From assembly GCA_025055765.1 (NCBI GenBank), contig JANWWS010000013.1:186001-250000 (forward strand): 64,000 bases of DNA. Reading direction: 5' to 3'. The DNA comes from Leptospiraceae bacterium (GTDB lineage: Bacteria; Spirochaetota; Leptospiria; Turneriellales; Turneriellaceae). This document shows, piece by piece, positions 51,530 to 58,992 of the stretch (its first letter is position 1; each line of letters begins with the position of its first letter). The notes beneath the pieces were generated by a model. The model saw only the letters and a list, made by a program, of their open reading frames with translations, was not told the origin of the DNA and ran no database searches. Position numbers and translations under genes: made by a program.

Positions 51530-52408
51530 ATGAGCTTTTTCATATACCTAGGACTTTTCTTAGTTCTCATGACAAGTAACTCTTTTGCTATTTGCGGTGG
51601 GGAATATTGCCCCGTAAGAGTAAAAAAATCGGAGGAAATCCAGTATGCCCAAACCAATTTTTATGAAGGTTTTGGGGTGGGAACTCAGTACCGAACGGTC
51701 GCTTTCGATATTGGAGGTAAGGGATACTACAATGCGCTGATTTTCCAGCCCATGTATTTCCATCCCCGATTCTCGGCCGGAACGATACTACCCTTAGTGC
51801 AGCTCTATGAACCGGGAGTGAAAAACCCTCATTACGGTATCGCAAACCCCCTTCTTTTAGCTGAGTACTACCCCCTAAACAAAGAAACCATGCTTGCCCT
51901 GGGTACTATGGCAGAACTTCCCTTGGGAAACCATGAAAGAGGCATGGCTGCCGATCACTTTATGCTAATGCCCTACATCACGCTTACACAAGCAGTGTTG
52001 TGCGGATATGCTGGGGCTCAGCTTGCCTATCAAAGAGCCTTACATGGCCATGACCACGGGCATCACCACCACAGGATCCTTTACGTAAACCCTCATGAAG
52101 ATGAAGAAATCTGGTACCGCGTCTATGGGGGCTGGCGCTTTGGTAGCTACACACCGGAGCTCTTGATTTCTGGGCGCTACGCTCTCGAGCAGCACCTAGG
52201 CCAAGATCGCAGCTTCTTAAGCATAGGCACCATCCAACGCTATCGCCTCTCACCAGGTCTTGAGCTTAACATCAACCTAGAATTTCCTGTTTTAAGCCGC
52301 GAGAGAGAATTTTTCCGCGTTGGTGGCGGTGTCTACGCACAATTGGCGGATCTTTTGCCAAGAAAACACACAACCCAAAATAACATACCAGACGGAGGCA
52401 TAAAATGA
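51530..52408 (+). CDS. Outer-membrane barrel protein with His-rich loop
   Basis: 292 residues. Signal peptide (hydrophobic MSFFIYLGLFLVL to Phe-Ala), then a short Cys pair CGGEYC near 22-27 and barrel-like alternating strands to the end. Residues about 169-178 form the loop HGHDHGHHHH, seven His in ten residues, a strong metal-binding sequence followed by acidic NPHEDEE. The AAGGAGG site is good. It overlaps the MbnP gene by 4 bases. It is likely to bind copper or another metal at the cell surface or periplasm. Confidence 0.72.
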   Translation: MSFFIYLGLFLVLMTSNSFAICGGEYCPVRVKKSEEIQYAQTNFYEGFGVGTQYRTVAFDIGGKGYYNALIFQPMYFHPRFSAGTILPLVQLYEPGVKNPHYGIANPLLLAEYYPLNKETMLALGTMAELPLGNHERGMAADHFMLMPYITLTQAVLCGYAGAQLAYQRALHGHDHGHHHHRILYVNPHEDEEIWYRVYGGWRFGSYTPELLISGRYALEQHLGQDRSFLSIGTIQRYRLSPGLELNINLEFPVLSREREFFRVGGGVYAQLADLLPRKHTTQNNIPDGGIK

Positions 52409-53367
52409 AAAAAATATCACTTTTCCTTATAAATCTAATCTACATCTATTCCTGTGCCCAACTCCACGATGAAGAAAAACCAAAACTTGAGATAGAAATT
52501 CCCTTTGCGGCTAAAGTGGGCTCTGAGAATTTCTCCTGTTCGCGCGAGTATAGCGGCATCGGTGCAAAACCTGGGGGTGGCTCCACCATTAAACCCCATG
52601 ACTTTCGTTTCTATGTACACGACTTTGAGTTTGTGACTAACCTTGGGGAAATAATCCATGTAAAATTGCGCCAAGATGGCAGTTGGCAATACGAGAATGT
52701 GGCCTTGCTCGACTTTGAAGACAATTCTGGGCACTGCGCCAATGTCAGCGGAAATACCGCAGCCACCAACCATGTCATACATGGCACTTACGAAAAACCA
52801 GCTGGATCTATCGAAAAAATACGCTTTGTCGTAGGTGTCCCAGAACACTTAAATCATAAAGACCGGGCAGTAGCTCCACCACCACTGAATCTTGCAAGTT
52901 TGCACTGGGACTGGACCACGGGCTACAAACATGCTCGTATTGACTTTGTCTCAGATGATTTTAAGAATAGCAACAACGAGGAATTTTCGGGACAGTCAGC
53001 CAACTCTACAGGAAAATTTAACATCCACCTAGGAGCCACTGGCTGCACAGGGGTTGGATCACAAGGCACAGCCCAATGTAGCGTGAAAAACCGACCTGTG
53101 ATTGAGCTCACCTTTCGCCTAGGTCAAACCATTGTGGCTGACCTAAAAGAGCTTCTAGCCACAACTGATCTTTCCGTAAAAGACAAAAATGGACCGAAAG
53201 GGTGCATGTCCAGCCAGACAGACCCTGAATGCAAGGAGGTGTTCCTTAACTTCGGCTTGGATTTCCATTTTGACCCACAATCCACAGTACCCACGGAGAG
53301 AAGACGGAATCTCAGCTCAAACACCGTCTATCCCACATCGGGACAAAAGTTCTTCCGGGTGGAGTAA
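52405..53367 (+). CDS. MbnP-family metal-binding lipoprotein
   Basis: 320 residues. A lipobox Tyr-Ser-Cys17 follows a hydrophobic signal. The four family cysteines are visible as Cys45, Cys111, Cys214 and Cys225, with further Cys267/276. Conserved features include RFYVHDFEFV, the GHCAN loop, IRFVVGVPEHLNH near 139-151, and LHWDWTTGYKH near 166-176 with Trp168 and Trp170. MbnP binds copper after MbnH oxidises a Trp to kynurenine. A GGAGG site precedes it. The paired mbnH is next, after a hairpin. No methanobactin biosynthesis genes lie in the window. Confidence 0.85.
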   Translation: MKKISLFLINLIYIYSCAQLHDEEKPKLEIEIPFAAKVGSENFSCSREYSGIGAKPGGGSTIKPHDFRFYVHDFEFVTNLGEIIHVKLRQDGSWQYENVALLDFEDNSGHCANVSGNTAATNHVIHGTYEKPAGSIEKIRFVVGVPEHLNHKDRAVAPPPLNLASLHWDWTTGYKHARIDFVSDDFKNSNNEEFSGQSANSTGKFNIHLGATGCTGVGSQGTAQCSVKNRPVIELTFRLGQTIVADLKELLATTDLSVKDKNGPKGCMSSQTDPECKEVFLNFGLDFHFDPQSTVPTERRRNLSSNTVYPTSGQKFFRVE

Positions 53368-53397
53368 ATGGAAAACTATACGTAAACGCTTAGTTCT

Positions 53398-53426
53398 CTC
53401 CGTCTCTGGCTCCCCCAGAGACGGGG
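53398..53426 (+). promoter_or_regulatory. Strong hairpin between mbnP-like and mbnH-like genes
   Basis: CCGTCTCTGG and CCAGAGACGG form a perfect 10-base stem (12 with flanking pairs) and a 5-base loop. The following GCTTTC is a poor T-run, so it may be a leaky terminator or a stability element giving more MbnP than MbnH. Confidence 0.6.
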
Positions 53427-53444
53427 CTTTCTTGGAGAAAGGGT

Positions 53445-54725
53445 ATGGATTTCCATAGCAAAAATTTGACCTACGTCCTGTCTTTTTCCCTGTGCCTAAG
53501 CACCCTATTAGCTTGCTCTTCAGCCCCAACCGAATTATTAACCATCCAAGAAGAATTTGTCTGGGAATTACCACCGGGAGTTCCTCTTCCCCGAGAACTT
53601 GCCGACAACCCCATGTCTGCGGCAAAGATTGAGTTAGGCCGTTATCTTTTTTATGATAAGAGGCTTTCAGGGGATGGCAGATTTTCTTGCGCAAGCTGTC
53701 ATCATCAAAGACGCTCTTTTGCGGATGATCCCCACATCGATGATGGCTCTATGGAAAGCTCACATCTTGGCACGGTCCATGCCATCCTGCGACCTTATGG
53801 CATCACAGGAGAGGAACACCCGCGCAATGCCATGGCTCTGGTAAACCTGGCTTGGCAGAGCACTTATACCTGGGCAAACCCCCTCCTCCGCAAGTTGAGA
53901 ACCCAAGCACTTATACCCCTCTTGGGAGAAAATCCCGTAGAGATGGGGCTCTTAGGCCATGAAAGCCGGCTTTTAGCTGAAATTGAGGTTGATCCCATCT
54001 ACCAAAGGCTTTTCCCAAAGGCCTTCCCTGACCGAAAAAACCCCTTTACTTTAGATGAAATTACCCTAGCCCTTGAGGCATTCCAACGCAGCCTTATTAG
54101 CTACGACGCTCCATTTGATCGCTACCAAAGGGGTGATCACTCTGCTCTGTCTTCCAGTGCTCGCCGTGGCATGGAGCTTTTCTTTAGTGAGGACTTAGAG
54201 TGCTTCCATTGTCATGGAGGGCTTAACTTTACTCTCATGGAGGACCACCGCCAGCTTGCCGAGCCATCAATAGATTTTGCCAATACAGGTCTTTATAATA
54301 TTGGTGGCTTAGGCCTTTATCCCCCGCAAAATCAAGGGCTTTTTGAGTTTACTCAAAAAATTATGGACATGGGCAAGTTTAAAGCACCATCTTTGCGCAA
54401 TGTTGAGCTTACGGCTCCCTACATGCACGACGGCTCCGTAGCAAATCTGGATGAGGTACTTGACCACTACTCTGCTGGTGGGCGCACGATCTCAAGTGGA
54501 CCATTCGCGGGTGTAGGCAGTGCTAATCCTTTTAAGAGTGGTTTTGTAAAGGGCTTTACTCTTACACCGCAAGAGCGGGCGGACATCATAGCTTTCTTGA
54601 AAAGTCTAACGGACTGCCGGTTTATCACAAACCCCAAGTACGCCAATCCTTGGCCTGCGGGTCATAGGAACAAACCTGACCCCCTGGACGAGCTACCGGA
54701 AAGTAGCCATCCCTGCAATCCATGA
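53445..54725 (+). CDS. MbnH-family di-haem enzyme (MauG/BCCP superfamily), lipoprotein
   Basis: 426 residues. Lipobox Leu-Leu-Ala-Cys at about 21-24, two c-type haem motifs Cys82-A-S-Cys85-His86 and Cys253-F-H-Cys256-His257, and the family end ADIIAFLKSLTD. The length and place beside an MbnP gene make it the partner that oxidises MbnP tryptophan with peroxide. It belongs to the same superfamily as the 10205 peroxidase but is longer and not closely alike. ATG 53445 follows a GGAGAAAGGG. The stop overlaps the next gene by 4 bases. Confidence 0.85.
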   Translation: MDFHSKNLTYVLSFSLCLSTLLACSSAPTELLTIQEEFVWELPPGVPLPRELADNPMSAAKIELGRYLFYDKRLSGDGRFSCASCHHQRRSFADDPHIDDGSMESSHLGTVHAILRPYGITGEEHPRNAMALVNLAWQSTYTWANPLLRKLRTQALIPLLGENPVEMGLLGHESRLLAEIEVDPIYQRLFPKAFPDRKNPFTLDEITLALEAFQRSLISYDAPFDRYQRGDHSALSSSARRGMELFFSEDLECFHCHGGLNFTLMEDHRQLAEPSIDFANTGLYNIGGLGLYPPQNQGLFEFTQKIMDMGKFKAPSLRNVELTAPYMHDGSVANLDEVLDHYSAGGRTISSGPFAGVGSANPFKSGFVKGFTLTPQERADIIAFLKSLTDCRFITNPKYANPWPAGHRNKPDPLDELPESSHPCNP

Positions 54726-55771
54726 AGAAAATCTGCCATTCATTTCTCATATGGATCTCCATATTTATCGCTTTTACCACGCCTCTTTTTGCAGAACATG
54801 GACCTCTCTCCACAGCAGGGGGGGTCCCTACCCTTCTCTTACAAGATCTAAAACCAGGGAGGTTACGCGCTGCTAGCAGTATCACCTTTACTCACTACAA
54901 TTCCTTTGCGGAAAATGACCTGCCTCGCTTGTTATCCGAGAATCCACAAAACCATCTTGTGCTTTTAGACCAGGCTCTCTTGTGGCAAAATGAAATAGGC
55001 TGGGCTGTTATGGAAATCCTGAGCCTGCATTTTTGGTTACCATATTATCGTGCCCTGGAGCTAAAAGAGGCCTTTTATGACAGCGGCGGGAACCTCCGCC
55101 TTTTGCGTACTGCCTCCCTATCGGGAGTTGGCGACCCTTCTTTTATGCTGCGTATTCTTATGCCTTCTTGGGATGCTTTACGAATACGAATCCAAACTGG
55201 CCTTAAGCTACCCCTAGGTAAGACAAGCAGCCGAAAAGAAGCAAAGCCTCTTGCCGAATTTCTCTCCGCCAGGGTGTCCCATAGTCCCCACTTACATGTG
55301 GTGCAAGACTCACCTTCAGCCAACCCCCTGGGGGATCTATACCAAAGGGATCCCTCTGTTATGCCAGGATCAGGCAGCCTAGATTTTCTTTTTGGCTATC
55401 TTATAAGTTATACGTTGGCGAGACAAGAGATGTGGGTAGAGGCTCTCTTTTACCGCCGCGGGGTCTATGAAGATTACCAATTGGGCCACCTTCTGCAGAG
55501 CCGAATTATTTACCGCCACCTGCTAACGCCGGAGACACCTTTGTATGCCCAAGTAGGGCTAAGCTATCTTTGGCGGGCAGCTCATCGCTTCCGCGCAGAG
55601 CCTTTTGCCAATAGTGGTGGTGAAACCTGGTTTGTGCTCTGGGGGGTATGTTTTTCCATAACGGGAATTTCTTTGTCATTAGAGCATGAATTGGTAGCTT
55701 TCCAAGAAATCCCCCGTGCCCAGCAGGGACTATTGGGCAAGACATATCTTTCCCTGGCGTATGTGTTTTAA
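54722..55771 (+). CDS. Outer-membrane protein of the MbnP/MbnH cassette
   Basis: 349 residues. Signal peptide (MKKICHSFLIW... ending FAEH), then EHGPLSTAGGVPTL, an N-terminal motif seen in outer-membrane transporter-like proteins, and barrel-like strands to a C-terminal Phe (SLAYVF), the typical barrel end. It overlaps the MbnH stop (ATGA). It could move metal or a metal ligand across the outer membrane; no catalytic motif. Confidence 0.7.
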   Translation: MKKICHSFLIWISIFIAFTTPLFAEHGPLSTAGGVPTLLLQDLKPGRLRAASSITFTHYNSFAENDLPRLLSENPQNHLVLLDQALLWQNEIGWAVMEILSLHFWLPYYRALELKEAFYDSGGNLRLLRTASLSGVGDPSFMLRILMPSWDALRIRIQTGLKLPLGKTSSRKEAKPLAEFLSARVSHSPHLHVVQDSPSANPLGDLYQRDPSVMPGSGSLDFLFGYLISYTLARQEMWVEALFYRRGVYEDYQLGHLLQSRIIYRHLLTPETPLYAQVGLSYLWRAAHRFRAEPFANSGGETWFVLWGVCFSITGISLSLEHELVAFQEIPRAQQGLLGKTYLSLAYVF

Positions 55772-55862
55772 GAAATTTGTATCATAGAAAACAAACATTT
55801 TGTTTACTAAATAAACACTACACACCTTCGGTTATTGGCACAATTTTTGCAGTGCATAAAGT
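55772..55862 (+). promoter_or_regulatory. Upstream control region with inverted repeats
   Basis: AAACAAA-CAT-TTTGTTT (55789-55805) and TGTTTA-CTAAA-TAAACA (55801-55817) are perfect overlapping inverted repeats 20-50 bases before the sigma-54 box. They may bind an enhancer protein, or form the 3' end of the upstream operon. Confidence 0.4.
55836..55851 (+). promoter_or_regulatory. Sigma-54 (RpoN) promoter
   Basis: TGGCACA-ATTT-TTGCA matches the -24/-12 consensus TGGCACG-N4-TTGCW at all but one position. GG is at 55837-55838 and GC at 55849-55850, spaced as required, which places the transcription start near 55862, next to the ATG at 55863. Confidence 0.8.
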
Positions 55863-57671
55863 ATGATTGCCTTAAAGTATGGCAAGCGCAAGGTTATTAA
55901 CTATCGTGGCGCCAGAATCGTGGTCGGCGGGCTAACTGCCCGAAACAAGATAGATATTTTACTATACATTAGTAAGGAACTTGGAATGTCAAACGAGGAA
56001 AGGGCCCTTTATGATCAAGTTTTGCGTCTGGCCCAGGAGATTTTTGAAGCCGATAATTGCACCTTACGTCTTTTTGATGGCAAATATCTCCAACCAGTGG
56101 CCTTCATAAATGAAAATACAGGCAAAAGAAGACCTCTTTTGCCTGGAGAGGGTTTTTCTGGGGCTGTCTTTGCCGAGGGTAAGTCGAAGCTGATACTTGA
56201 TTTAAACCAGCACCCCGAGTATCTGGATCGATTTGAGACAACCCAATGTGTCTTATGCGTGCCCATCATGAGTGACAACGAAAAATTAGGAACCATCTCC
56301 ATAGAAAAAACCATAAGTCACTTTTACCGCAAGGATGATCTTGAAATTTTGGAGGCTATGGCATCCCAAATAGCTTTAGCAGTCACCAAAGTGCGTCTTA
56401 TTAGCCGTTTACAAGAAGAAAAGCGCAAGGTTCAAAAAATCCAAGAGCAACTTGAATGGGATTTGAGGATGGGGCGCAATGTGCAGGAGCAAATCATTAG
56501 CCGCAACATAGCCCCATGGAATTGCCTTTATTTCAGTGCTTTTTACCAGCCTATGGTAGAGGTAAGTGGGGATTTCTTTCAAGTTTGGCGTAGCCGAGAG
56601 CATGTTACTATTTTTCTAGCCGACGTAAGTGGCCATGGTGTGCCTGCGGCTCTTATTACGATGACATTGCACCACCAATTTATGAACTGCATGGACAGGG
56701 GTTTGGGTCTTATGGAAACCCTAGAAGAGATAAACAACCACACCCAGCCTATTTTGCCTGAGGGCATTTATTTTACTGCGCAAATTTTGCGCATCTATGC
56801 TGATTATAGCTTCTCCTATGTGAATGCAGGCCATGTGAAGATTATCCAATACCACCACGAAGATCATAAATTTAGCGAATGGGATTCCAAAGGCATACCA
56901 CTAGGCATCACTGTCTTAAAGCGTGAACAATACGAAGAGCGCTTCGGCTTGCTTAAACCAGGAGATATGCTGCTTTTTTTGACTGATGGTATGAGTGAAC
57001 AGAGAAACAAAAAAGGGGAGGAGGTGGGGCTTGGACGTATTTTGCATTGGCTTCAGGAAGCTTTAAAAGAAAACGAGCCACAATTTGATTGTGAGAAGAT
57101 AAAAAACACTTTCCTAGATAAATGGCGTGCGTTTGTCGGGGATACCCCTCAAGGGGATGATTTAACCTTTCTCCTAGTTGGTTTCTCCCCAAAGCAAAGA
57201 GAAGCTCTCCAAATTTATGATCGGGCAAAAAAAGCTTTTATAAAGGGTCAGCTTGAGCAGGCAGAAAAACTTTCCCAGCGCGCCCATGAAACAGAGCCTA
57301 ACTTTACGCAAAACCTCATCTTGCTCTCCAAAATAGCGATGCTAAAAAAGGAGTATGGTCAGACAGCCCATTTCCTTGAATTATATTTGCGGAATACCGG
57401 CGATAAAAACCCCCAAATACACTATTTATTAGGGCTTGCCTATTTACGAAGTGGCCATATTACCCTAGCCAAAAAGGTTTACAAGAAAATACTTGCCATG
57501 AAACACGATTACTTAAGAGCTTACTTGGCACTTGCCCAATGTTACCTAAAGGAAGGATCCTTCCCTAAAGCCCGGCGTACCTTGGAGAATGCCCTTCTTG
57601 TTTTCCCTCAAGAACCGAAAATACGAAACTTTATGAAAAAGGTGGAAGACTATGCGTCGGCAAAACTATAA
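55863..57671 (+). CDS. GAF-PP2C (SpoIIE-type) phosphatase with TPR repeats
   Basis: 602 residues. A GAF sensor (about 30-185), a coiled-coil linker, a SpoIIE-type PP2C phosphatase (about 210-445; SGDFFQVW, ADVSGHGVPAAL, FLTDGMSEQ, GDDLTFLLV) and TPR repeats (about 450-600). It would dephosphorylate a STAS antagonist, controlling an unknown pathway. An alternative start at ATG 55986 has AAGGA, but the upstream 41 codons (ARNKIDILLYISKEL) look like a genuine GAF lead helix. It is in one operon with amtB (20-base overlap) behind a sigma-54 promoter. Confidence 0.88.
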   Translation: MIALKYGKRKVINYRGARIVVGGLTARNKIDILLYISKELGMSNEERALYDQVLRLAQEIFEADNCTLRLFDGKYLQPVAFINENTGKRRPLLPGEGFSGAVFAEGKSKLILDLNQHPEYLDRFETTQCVLCVPIMSDNEKLGTISIEKTISHFYRKDDLEILEAMASQIALAVTKVRLISRLQEEKRKVQKIQEQLEWDLRMGRNVQEQIISRNIAPWNCLYFSAFYQPMVEVSGDFFQVWRSREHVTIFLADVSGHGVPAALITMTLHHQFMNCMDRGLGLMETLEEINNHTQPILPEGIYFTAQILRIYADYSFSYVNAGHVKIIQYHHEDHKFSEWDSKGIPLGITVLKREQYEERFGLLKPGDMLLFLTDGMSEQRNKKGEEVGLGRILHWLQEALKENEPQFDCEKIKNTFLDKWRAFVGDTPQGDDLTFLLVGFSPKQREALQIYDRAKKAFIKGQLEQAEKLSQRAHETEPNFTQNLILLSKIAMLKKEYGQTAHFLELYLRNTGDKNPQIHYLLGLAYLRSGHITLAKKVYKKILAMKHDYLRAYLALAQCYLKEGSFPKARRTLENALLVFPQEPKIRNFMKKVEDYASAKL

Positions 57672-58992
57672 ACTTATTGTTTTTCTTTGGCCTCTTTCTC
57701 CCCTATTGGCACAAGAACGCAGTGTAGAGAAGCTGGCCTTGGAAGCAGACCTCCTTTGGCTCATCGTGGGCGCTTATCTTGTGTTTGTCATGCAGCCTGG
57801 CTTTGCTTTTGTGGAAGCAGGTTTTACGCGAGCTAAAAATGCGGTAAGCATCCTTATGAAAAACATATCTGATTTTATGGTTGGCTCTTTAGTTTTTTAT
57901 TTAATTGGCTTTTCCCTGATGTTTGGGCCACACCTAGTTAAGGATTTTGGTATTGGCTTTCCTCAAGTGGGTAGTAGCCTCCTGGAAAGCGACGCCAAGC
58001 CTGATGCCTTTAAATATGGCTTTTTTTTCTTTCAGCTGGTCTTTGCCGCCACGGCAGCTACCATTGTCTCCGGAGCCATGGCAGAAAGAACCCGCTTTTA
58101 TGCTTATCTCATCTTTTCTGCTATAAGCACTGGTATCATTTATCCTATCTTTGGCTCGCTAGCATGGTCAAACTTATTTTCCTCGGAAAATGTGGGCTTT
58201 TTAGCCAAGCTAGGCTTTACAGATTTTGCGGGTTCCACCGTGGTCCATTCCGTAGGGGGGTGGATGGGGCTTGCAGGGGCCATGGTTGTGGGCCCTCGCC
58301 ATGGTAAGTATACGCCCCAAGGTGTGCAACCCATTTTAGGCCATAACCTAAGTCTTTCTGTTCTCGGCATGTTCTTGCTTTGGTTTGGCTGGTTTGGGTT
58401 TAATCCAGCAAGTACCGCTACCATTCGGGAGGGCAGCTTTGCCATTGTGGCCGTAACAACCAACATCGCAGCTGCGGCAGGTGGGCTTGCCGCCATGGCT
58501 ATAGCTTGGATTTTATTTCGCAGACCTGACGCGAGTATGGTTATCAATGGAGTCCTAGCGGGTCTTGTGGCTATCACAGCCCCCTGCTACAATGTTAATA
58601 TCGAGGGGGCTATCTTGATTGGCCTCATTGCTGGTGTACTTGTCGTTTTCGGAGTAATCCTTTTTGACACCCTGCGCATCGACGACCCCGTGGGCGCCAT
58701 CTCCGTTCATGGTCTTGCTGGGGCCTGGGGTACCTTGGCGGTTGGCTTATTCGCAGATCCCCGCTTTGGTGATGGTAAGGCTGGGCTTTTTTATGGAGGT
58801 GGCTTCTCCTTATTAGGCGTGCAGGCTTTAGGTGTATTGCTTGCCTTTGTCTGGGCTTTTGGGGTGGCATATGTGGTATTTTTATTGCTTAAGAAAACCA
58901 TTGGGCTTAGAGTAGAGGAACACGAAGAATTGGAAGGTCTTGATGTAAGCGAACATGGCAATGAAGCATACGCAACGGAAACCTACCAATAG
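57652..58992 (+). CDS. amtB: Ammonium transporter
   Basis: 446 residues, normal length. A signal peptide, then eleven membrane helices with the family segments FVEAGFTRAKNA near 45-56, DFAGSTVVHSVGGW near 190-203 and SVHGLAGAWGT. AmtB conducts ammonia across the inner membrane. No PII (glnK) gene follows, so its regulator would be elsewhere. It shares the sigma-54 promoter with the phosphatase, in agreement with RpoN control of ammonium uptake known in Leptospira and many bacteria. The acidic tail ends HEELEGLDVSEHGNEAY. Confidence 0.95.
   Translation: MRRQNYKLIVFLWPLSPLLAQERSVEKLALEADLLWLIVGAYLVFVMQPGFAFVEAGFTRAKNAVSILMKNISDFMVGSLVFYLIGFSLMFGPHLVKDFGIGFPQVGSSLLESDAKPDAFKYGFFFFQLVFAATAATIVSGAMAERTRFYAYLIFSAISTGIIYPIFGSLAWSNLFSSENVGFLAKLGFTDFAGSTVVHSVGGWMGLAGAMVVGPRHGKYTPQGVQPILGHNLSLSVLGMFLLWFGWFGFNPASTATIREGSFAIVAVTTNIAAAAGGLAAMAIAWILFRRPDASMVINGVLAGLVAITAPCYNVNIEGAILIGLIAGVLVVFGVILFDTLRIDDPVGAISVHGLAGAWGTLAVGLFADPRFGDGKAGLFYGGGFSLLGVQALGVLLAFVWAFGVAYVVFLLLKKTIGLRVEEHEELEGLDVSEHGNEAYATETYQ

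Follow-up and report, generated by a model that had tools for sequence, protein, structure and literature searches.

How a signalling phosphatase and an ammonium transporter come to be expressed together, from a promoter that seems to leave the first gene without a leader, is the question raised by this locus. In the window (the whole 64-kb stretch of DNA that was analysed), a gene for a phosphatase with GAF, PP2C and TPR domains is followed by amtB, and a -24/-12 box of the sigma-54 type lies directly before the pair. Taken as a whole, the explanation that we favour, with a probability of roughly 0.7, is that of a nitrogen-starvation sigma-54 operon with a leaderless or almost leaderless phosphatase mRNA, to which amtB is coupled internally. 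Parts of this picture are already known from Leptospira: the EbpA-RpoN system of L. interrogans controls amtB and is needed for low-nitrogen growth and survival in water (PMC12655853), and leaderless mRNAs are abundant in the same species, with transcription starts 0-10 nt from the start codon (PMC5243855).

A sigma-54 promoter conserved in position

The box consensus TGGCAC-N5-TTGCW was scored at 11 positions on both strands of the 64 kb. The element TGGCACAATTTTTGCA (55836-55851, plus strand) fits at all 11 of them, with the -24 GG and -12 GC elements at the correct spacing, and is the sole exact match in the window, which bears out the near-perfect box claimed by the first-pass annotation. 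Matches with one mismatch or fewer numbered five, against 2.3 expected; an extra sigma-54 box inside amtB, at 58874, was set aside as probably due to chance.

The search for the same promoter in relatives that had been proposed along with that claim was productive. Orthologs of the phosphatase occur in 28 of 48 genomes of the class, and the 25 that include the start were used for all promoter and N-terminus counts. In 19 of these 25 orthologs a box scoring at least 8/11, with intact GG and GC elements, is found no more than 45 nt from the start, compared with 1.5% per sequence in a Markov-sampled control. In 13 orthologs the start codon follows the -12 C by 12-16 nt, and in six of them by exactly 13 nt, leaving a leader of 0-4 nt; in others this distance is 23-29 nt (six orthologs), 59-83 nt (two) or 152-173 nt (three), and one ortholog has no box. 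On the protein tree, the 12-16 nt class comprises all eight members of the clade with the window's gene and, elsewhere, a three-member group, G029 and G019 (three families). Among the 13 upstream regions with this short spacing, 10 lack a Shine-Dalgarno-like tetramer, whereas 10 of the 12 others have one (Fisher p 0.005, shared ancestry uncorrected). The six of 25 orthologs whose box lies 59-173 nt upstream or is missing count against the leaderless-operon explanation. One ortholog (L010, 56% identity), which is sister to the window's phosphatase with full support, belongs to G024, a genome placed in another family (f6); it was possibly acquired by gene transfer.

RpoN, the activator and a putative nitrogen regulon

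The absence of an RpoN gene had been named beforehand as refuting sigma-54 control; the window's genome has one. It also encodes one GAFTGA-bearing activator (L065:8846-10957), an EbpA-like enhancer-binding protein with GAF-GAF-AAA+-Fis HTH architecture; of the 48 genomes of the class, 40 encode an ortholog of it. A protein at C3:82865 (L003:904-2466) was rejected as a second complete activator: its AAA+ domain is degenerate and has no GAFTGA. It resembles sigma-54 activators, has an HTH and is possibly a repurposed regulator. In G007 (99% complete), rpoN, the activator and the phosphatase are all missing together. Since almost every genome of the class has rpoN, its co-occurrence with the phosphatase says little. 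Sigma-54 boxes in the window's own genome also precede glnA, amtB-glnK, an ATP-grasp operon and the gene of a secreted 390-aa protein with a signal-peptide-like N-terminus. We infer a regulon in which glnA, amtB-glnK and the ATP-grasp operon would be driven in parallel with the operon described here.

Both perfect inverted repeats noticed upstream by the first-pass annotation are present, one being AAACAAA-CAT-TTTGTTT (55789-55805) and the other TGTTTA-N5-TAAACA (55801-55817). Their suggested role in binding the activator finds support for one of the two. TGTTTA-N5-TAAACA is a variant of the AAATAAGC / GCTTATTT motif, which belongs to the genome's other four sigma-54 promoters, and is a candidate activator site (UAS), while AAACAAA-CAT-TTTGTTT shows no such resemblance, was not seen at the genome's other sigma-54 promoters and has an uncertain role. 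AAATAAGC occurs no more than 100 nt upstream of four of the five own-genome boxes (0 of 2000 shuffles); at the fifth promoter, that of the window, its place is taken by AAATAAAC within a dyad. The upstream region of the ortholog L045 carries GCTTACAAAGTAAGC, and a UAS half-site was found in 11 of 24 ortholog upstream regions against 3.6 expected, a weaker signal than that of the own-genome motif.

Predicted start of the phosphatase message

With C55850 taken as -12, the -24/-12 rule used for placing +1 (PMC3844500) gives a start at 55862, one base before the ATG at 55863, exactly as had been claimed. The phosphatase mRNA is thus predicted, from a box-to-start spacing that can vary by a few bases, to begin at 55862-55863 (plus strand), i.e. 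at T55862 by the -12 rule or at A55863 of the ATG itself, and to be leaderless or almost so. A longer protein is excluded, because an in-frame TAA stands a few bases 5' of ATG 55863. The first-pass annotation had left a choice between a leaderless message and translation from 55986. Codons 1-40 (55863-55982, plus strand) form a conserved N-terminal segment, with mean column conservation of 0.80 and 0.83 over 25 orthologs, versus 0.23-0.81 in the remaining 20-residue blocks of the phosphatase, and all 25 orthologs that include the start agree on the residue with which the protein begins. Since residues 1-40 are among its best conserved parts, 55986 is not the start; N-terminal conservation thus identifies the annotated ATG 55863 as the true start codon and favours the leaderless alternative.

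The other sigma-54 genes provide an internal control. Of the genomes examined, most have a box before the amtB-glnK operon, among them G018 and G022, which are without the phosphatase. The usable ATG of this operon is 23-129 nt downstream of the -12 C and as a rule has an AGGAG Shine-Dalgarno sequence; glnA likewise has a leader with a Shine-Dalgarno sequence, and the idea that sigma-54 genes are generally leaderless here was rejected. The ATP-grasp operon has its box in most relatives and an in-frame start at -12C+13 in G000, the window's own genome (GTG), and in G044, G034, G031 and G005 (ATG). Leadered amtB-glnK and close-start ATP-grasp genes therefore indicate that leaderless spacing is gene-specific rather than a general property of sigma-54 promoters. 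This operon (L093:1501-2967 and orthologs) is of the circularly permuted ATP-grasp kind, with a conserved sigma-54 box.

Three other accounts of how this message arises have to be weighed. That about two boxes with one mismatch or fewer are expected at random per 64 kb gives some ground for regarding TGGCACAATTTTTGCA as a chance match and the operon as sigma-70 driven; yet the match is exact, its position is kept in 19 of 25 orthologs, and rpoN, the EbpA-like activator and a common upstream motif are all present in the genome, so that sigma-54 control is supported and the chance reading is very improbable. Just as improbable is a start at ATG 55986, which would give the mRNA an ordinary leader some 120 nt long and has a weak purine-rich AAGGAAC upstream of it; besides the high conservation of codons 1-40, it conflicts with the fact that the same first residue is kept also in orthologs with a Shine-Dalgarno sequence before it. 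A real sigma-54 promoter might, on the other hand, yield a poorly translated transcript, with the translated mRNA being a leadered one from a second upstream promoter or from read-through. The same-strand gene upstream ends at 55771, 91 bp before the phosphatase start, and a good terminator was not predicted between the two; read-through from it could add leadered transcripts. Against such an arrangement, ATG 55863 has no Shine-Dalgarno sequence, and where the box of relatives moves away, one usually appears. We consider it unlikely that the leadered mRNA is the one translated, and retain the leaderless or almost leaderless message as the preferred reading.

The phosphatase and the ammonium transporter

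The phosphatase gene (55863-57671, plus strand) encodes 602 aa with Pfam domains GAF (48-174), SpoIIE (246-440) and TPR (528-592). Its PP2C/SpoIIE domain has the metal-binding Asp motifs of RsbU-type PPM enzymes, and the SGDF, DVSGHG, TDG and GDD motifs are intact and kept in orthologs. In fold, the predicted PP2C model matches the SiaA, RssB, RsbU and SpoIIE phosphatases; the AlphaFold model was built from three sequences and is unreliable for residues 1-198, and its N-terminus was left unused. Enzymes of the RsbU/SpoIIE type are known to act on phosphorylated STAS antagonists. Neither a STAS antagonist gene nor a HATPase anti-sigma gene was found at the locus, which counts against the favoured explanation; the 19 STAS and 8 HATPase_c_2 matches of the genome, which count in its favour, all lie away from the locus, and the partner-switching step is therefore a putative one. 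Adjacent STAS and HATPase_c_2 genes (L160 and L175, G000:C49:115056-115811), some 9 kb from rpoN, are a candidate partner-switching pair.

The second gene, amtB (57652-58992, plus strand), encodes the 446-aa Amt1, with a full-length Amt domain (PF00909, 422 bits) and a TIGR00836 score of 438.6 bits against a curated cut-off of 343.3. It overlaps the phosphatase gene by 20 nt and is preceded, inside that gene, by a Shine-Dalgarno-like AGGTGG (57640-57645, plus strand); the single operon proposed at the outset is thereby confirmed in its reading frames and domains. Amt1 retains a GlnK-contact-like C-terminus, GLRVEEHEELEGLD..EHGNEAY. As had been noted, this amtB is not followed by glnK; the single PII gene of the genome, at G000:C49:309481, comes after the second amtB. 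The nearest solved structure to Amt1 is 6eu6, an ammonium transporter that we take to be the domain of Ks-Amt5. An argument from this match that Amt1 is a sensor was discarded, as the glnK-linked Amt2 also matches 6eu6 best and the match is unspecific.

The description of phosphatase and amtB as an uncommon pair does not hold within the class, where their association is usual. Among the 22 orthologs with a visible downstream side, 16 have amt1 downstream on the same strand, with overlaps or short gaps; in G031 amt1 lies just upstream. In two relatives, G020 and G045, Amt and SpoIIE are joined in one polypeptide (709 and 712 aa). The phosphatase part of the fusion is 28% identical to that of the window, where Amt is not covalently fused to a signalling domain and the genes are separate. 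Other spirochaete relatives have Amt fused to guanylate cyclase, MCP or histidine-kinase modules (L144, L142, L149, L139, L140, L136 and L141). A search of the open-access literature returned no paper linking amtB with an RsbU-type phosphatase, nor any on Amt-SpoIIE fusions or ammonium-responsive serine phosphatases.

Do the two proteins then work together? The Amt-SpoIIE fusions are the best evidence that an Amt and a phosphatase of this type do so. Given these fusions and the frequent pairing, Amt1, which we take for an uptake channel, is possibly also an ammonium-responsive partner of the phosphatase. It is nearly an even bet, however, that the two are merely co-regulated by sigma-54 with no physical or signalling link, Amt1 being a plain ammonium channel and the GAF domain of the phosphatase sensing something else. 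This would agree with the retention of transporter-family features in Amt1, with the lack of any amt beside the phosphatase in the Turneriella-type genomes G005, G008 and G012, and with G005 in particular, where some 37 kb separate the phosphatase from amt1 and each gene is preceded by a sigma-54 box of its own; the pairing in 16 of 22 visible contexts and the fusions speak against it. A more far-reaching proposal is held only tentatively: the phosphatase and Amt1 would form a two-piece ammonium transducer, a split Amt-SpoIIE feeding partner switching, and the leaderless spacing would be kept for translation in starved cells, unlike in amtB-glnK.

Proposed mechanism and relation to known systems

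In the sigma-54 explanation that we favour, shortage of nitrogen would cause the EbpA-like enhancer-binding protein to bind upstream sites of the AAATAAGC/GTTTA-N5-TAAAC type and to drive sigma-54 polymerase at 55836-55851, alongside glnA, amtB-glnK and the ATP-grasp operon. The transcript would start at the AUG or one base before it and the phosphatase would be translated from this (almost) leaderless mRNA, while amtB would be translated internally by means of its Shine-Dalgarno sequence and overlap coupling. The phosphatase, with its GAF sensor, PP2C domain with intact active site and TPR, probably dephosphorylates a STAS-type antagonist, which would turn nitrogen status into a partner-switching output.

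The closest known counterpart is the EbpA-RpoN system of L. interrogans, which likewise combines a two-GAF enhancer-binding protein and RpoN with an ammonium transporter and nitrogen limitation (PMC12655853, PMC5243855). Its regulon consists of amtB and two lipoprotein genes, and was compared here on amtB; unlike there, a PP2C gene precedes amtB, and glnA, amtB-glnK and the ATP-grasp operon are also boxed. With the leaderless mRNAs of that species the likeness lies in a predicted start zero to a few nucleotides from the start codon, but here it is tied to sigma-54, concerns one gene and is class-wide, while the co-regulated operon is leadered. Compared with sigma-54 amtB-glnK operons, a nitrogen-regulated Amt is in common; glnK, however, is absent here, and a separate, leadered amtB-glnK exists in the same genome. 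The RsbU, RssB, SiaA and SpoIIE phosphatases share the PP2C domain, catalytic motifs and fold, yet differ in that the present enzyme has a conserved N-terminal segment and GAF, a C-terminal TPR and Amt linkage, with the partner gene absent at the locus. Finally, Ks-Amt5 of Kuenenia, an Amt-histidine kinase (PMC5764959), also couples an ammonium transporter to a signalling enzyme, whereas here there are two polypeptides and a phosphatase in place of the kinase.

The phosphatase-Amt operon and the conserved leaderless sigma-54 geometry appear to be new. They sketch a nitrogen regulon in a spirochaete lineage that has received little study and add a conserved signalling phosphatase to the control of ammonium uptake, and the Amt-SpoIIE fusions point to ammonium-responsive serine phosphatases. 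Both Amt operons carry the same type of sigma-54 promoter, yet the one is predicted to be leaderless and the other leadered. They amount to a natural paired experiment, and the purpose of leaderless translation is therefore directly testable.

Neighbouring genes

Upstream of the operon, a gene for an MbnP copper-binding protein adjoins one for an MbnH-type di-heme enzyme (52405-54725), and the pair is flanked by two genes for proteins without family matches (51530-52408 and 54722-55771). This copper/haem cassette ends 91 bp before the start of the phosphatase gene.
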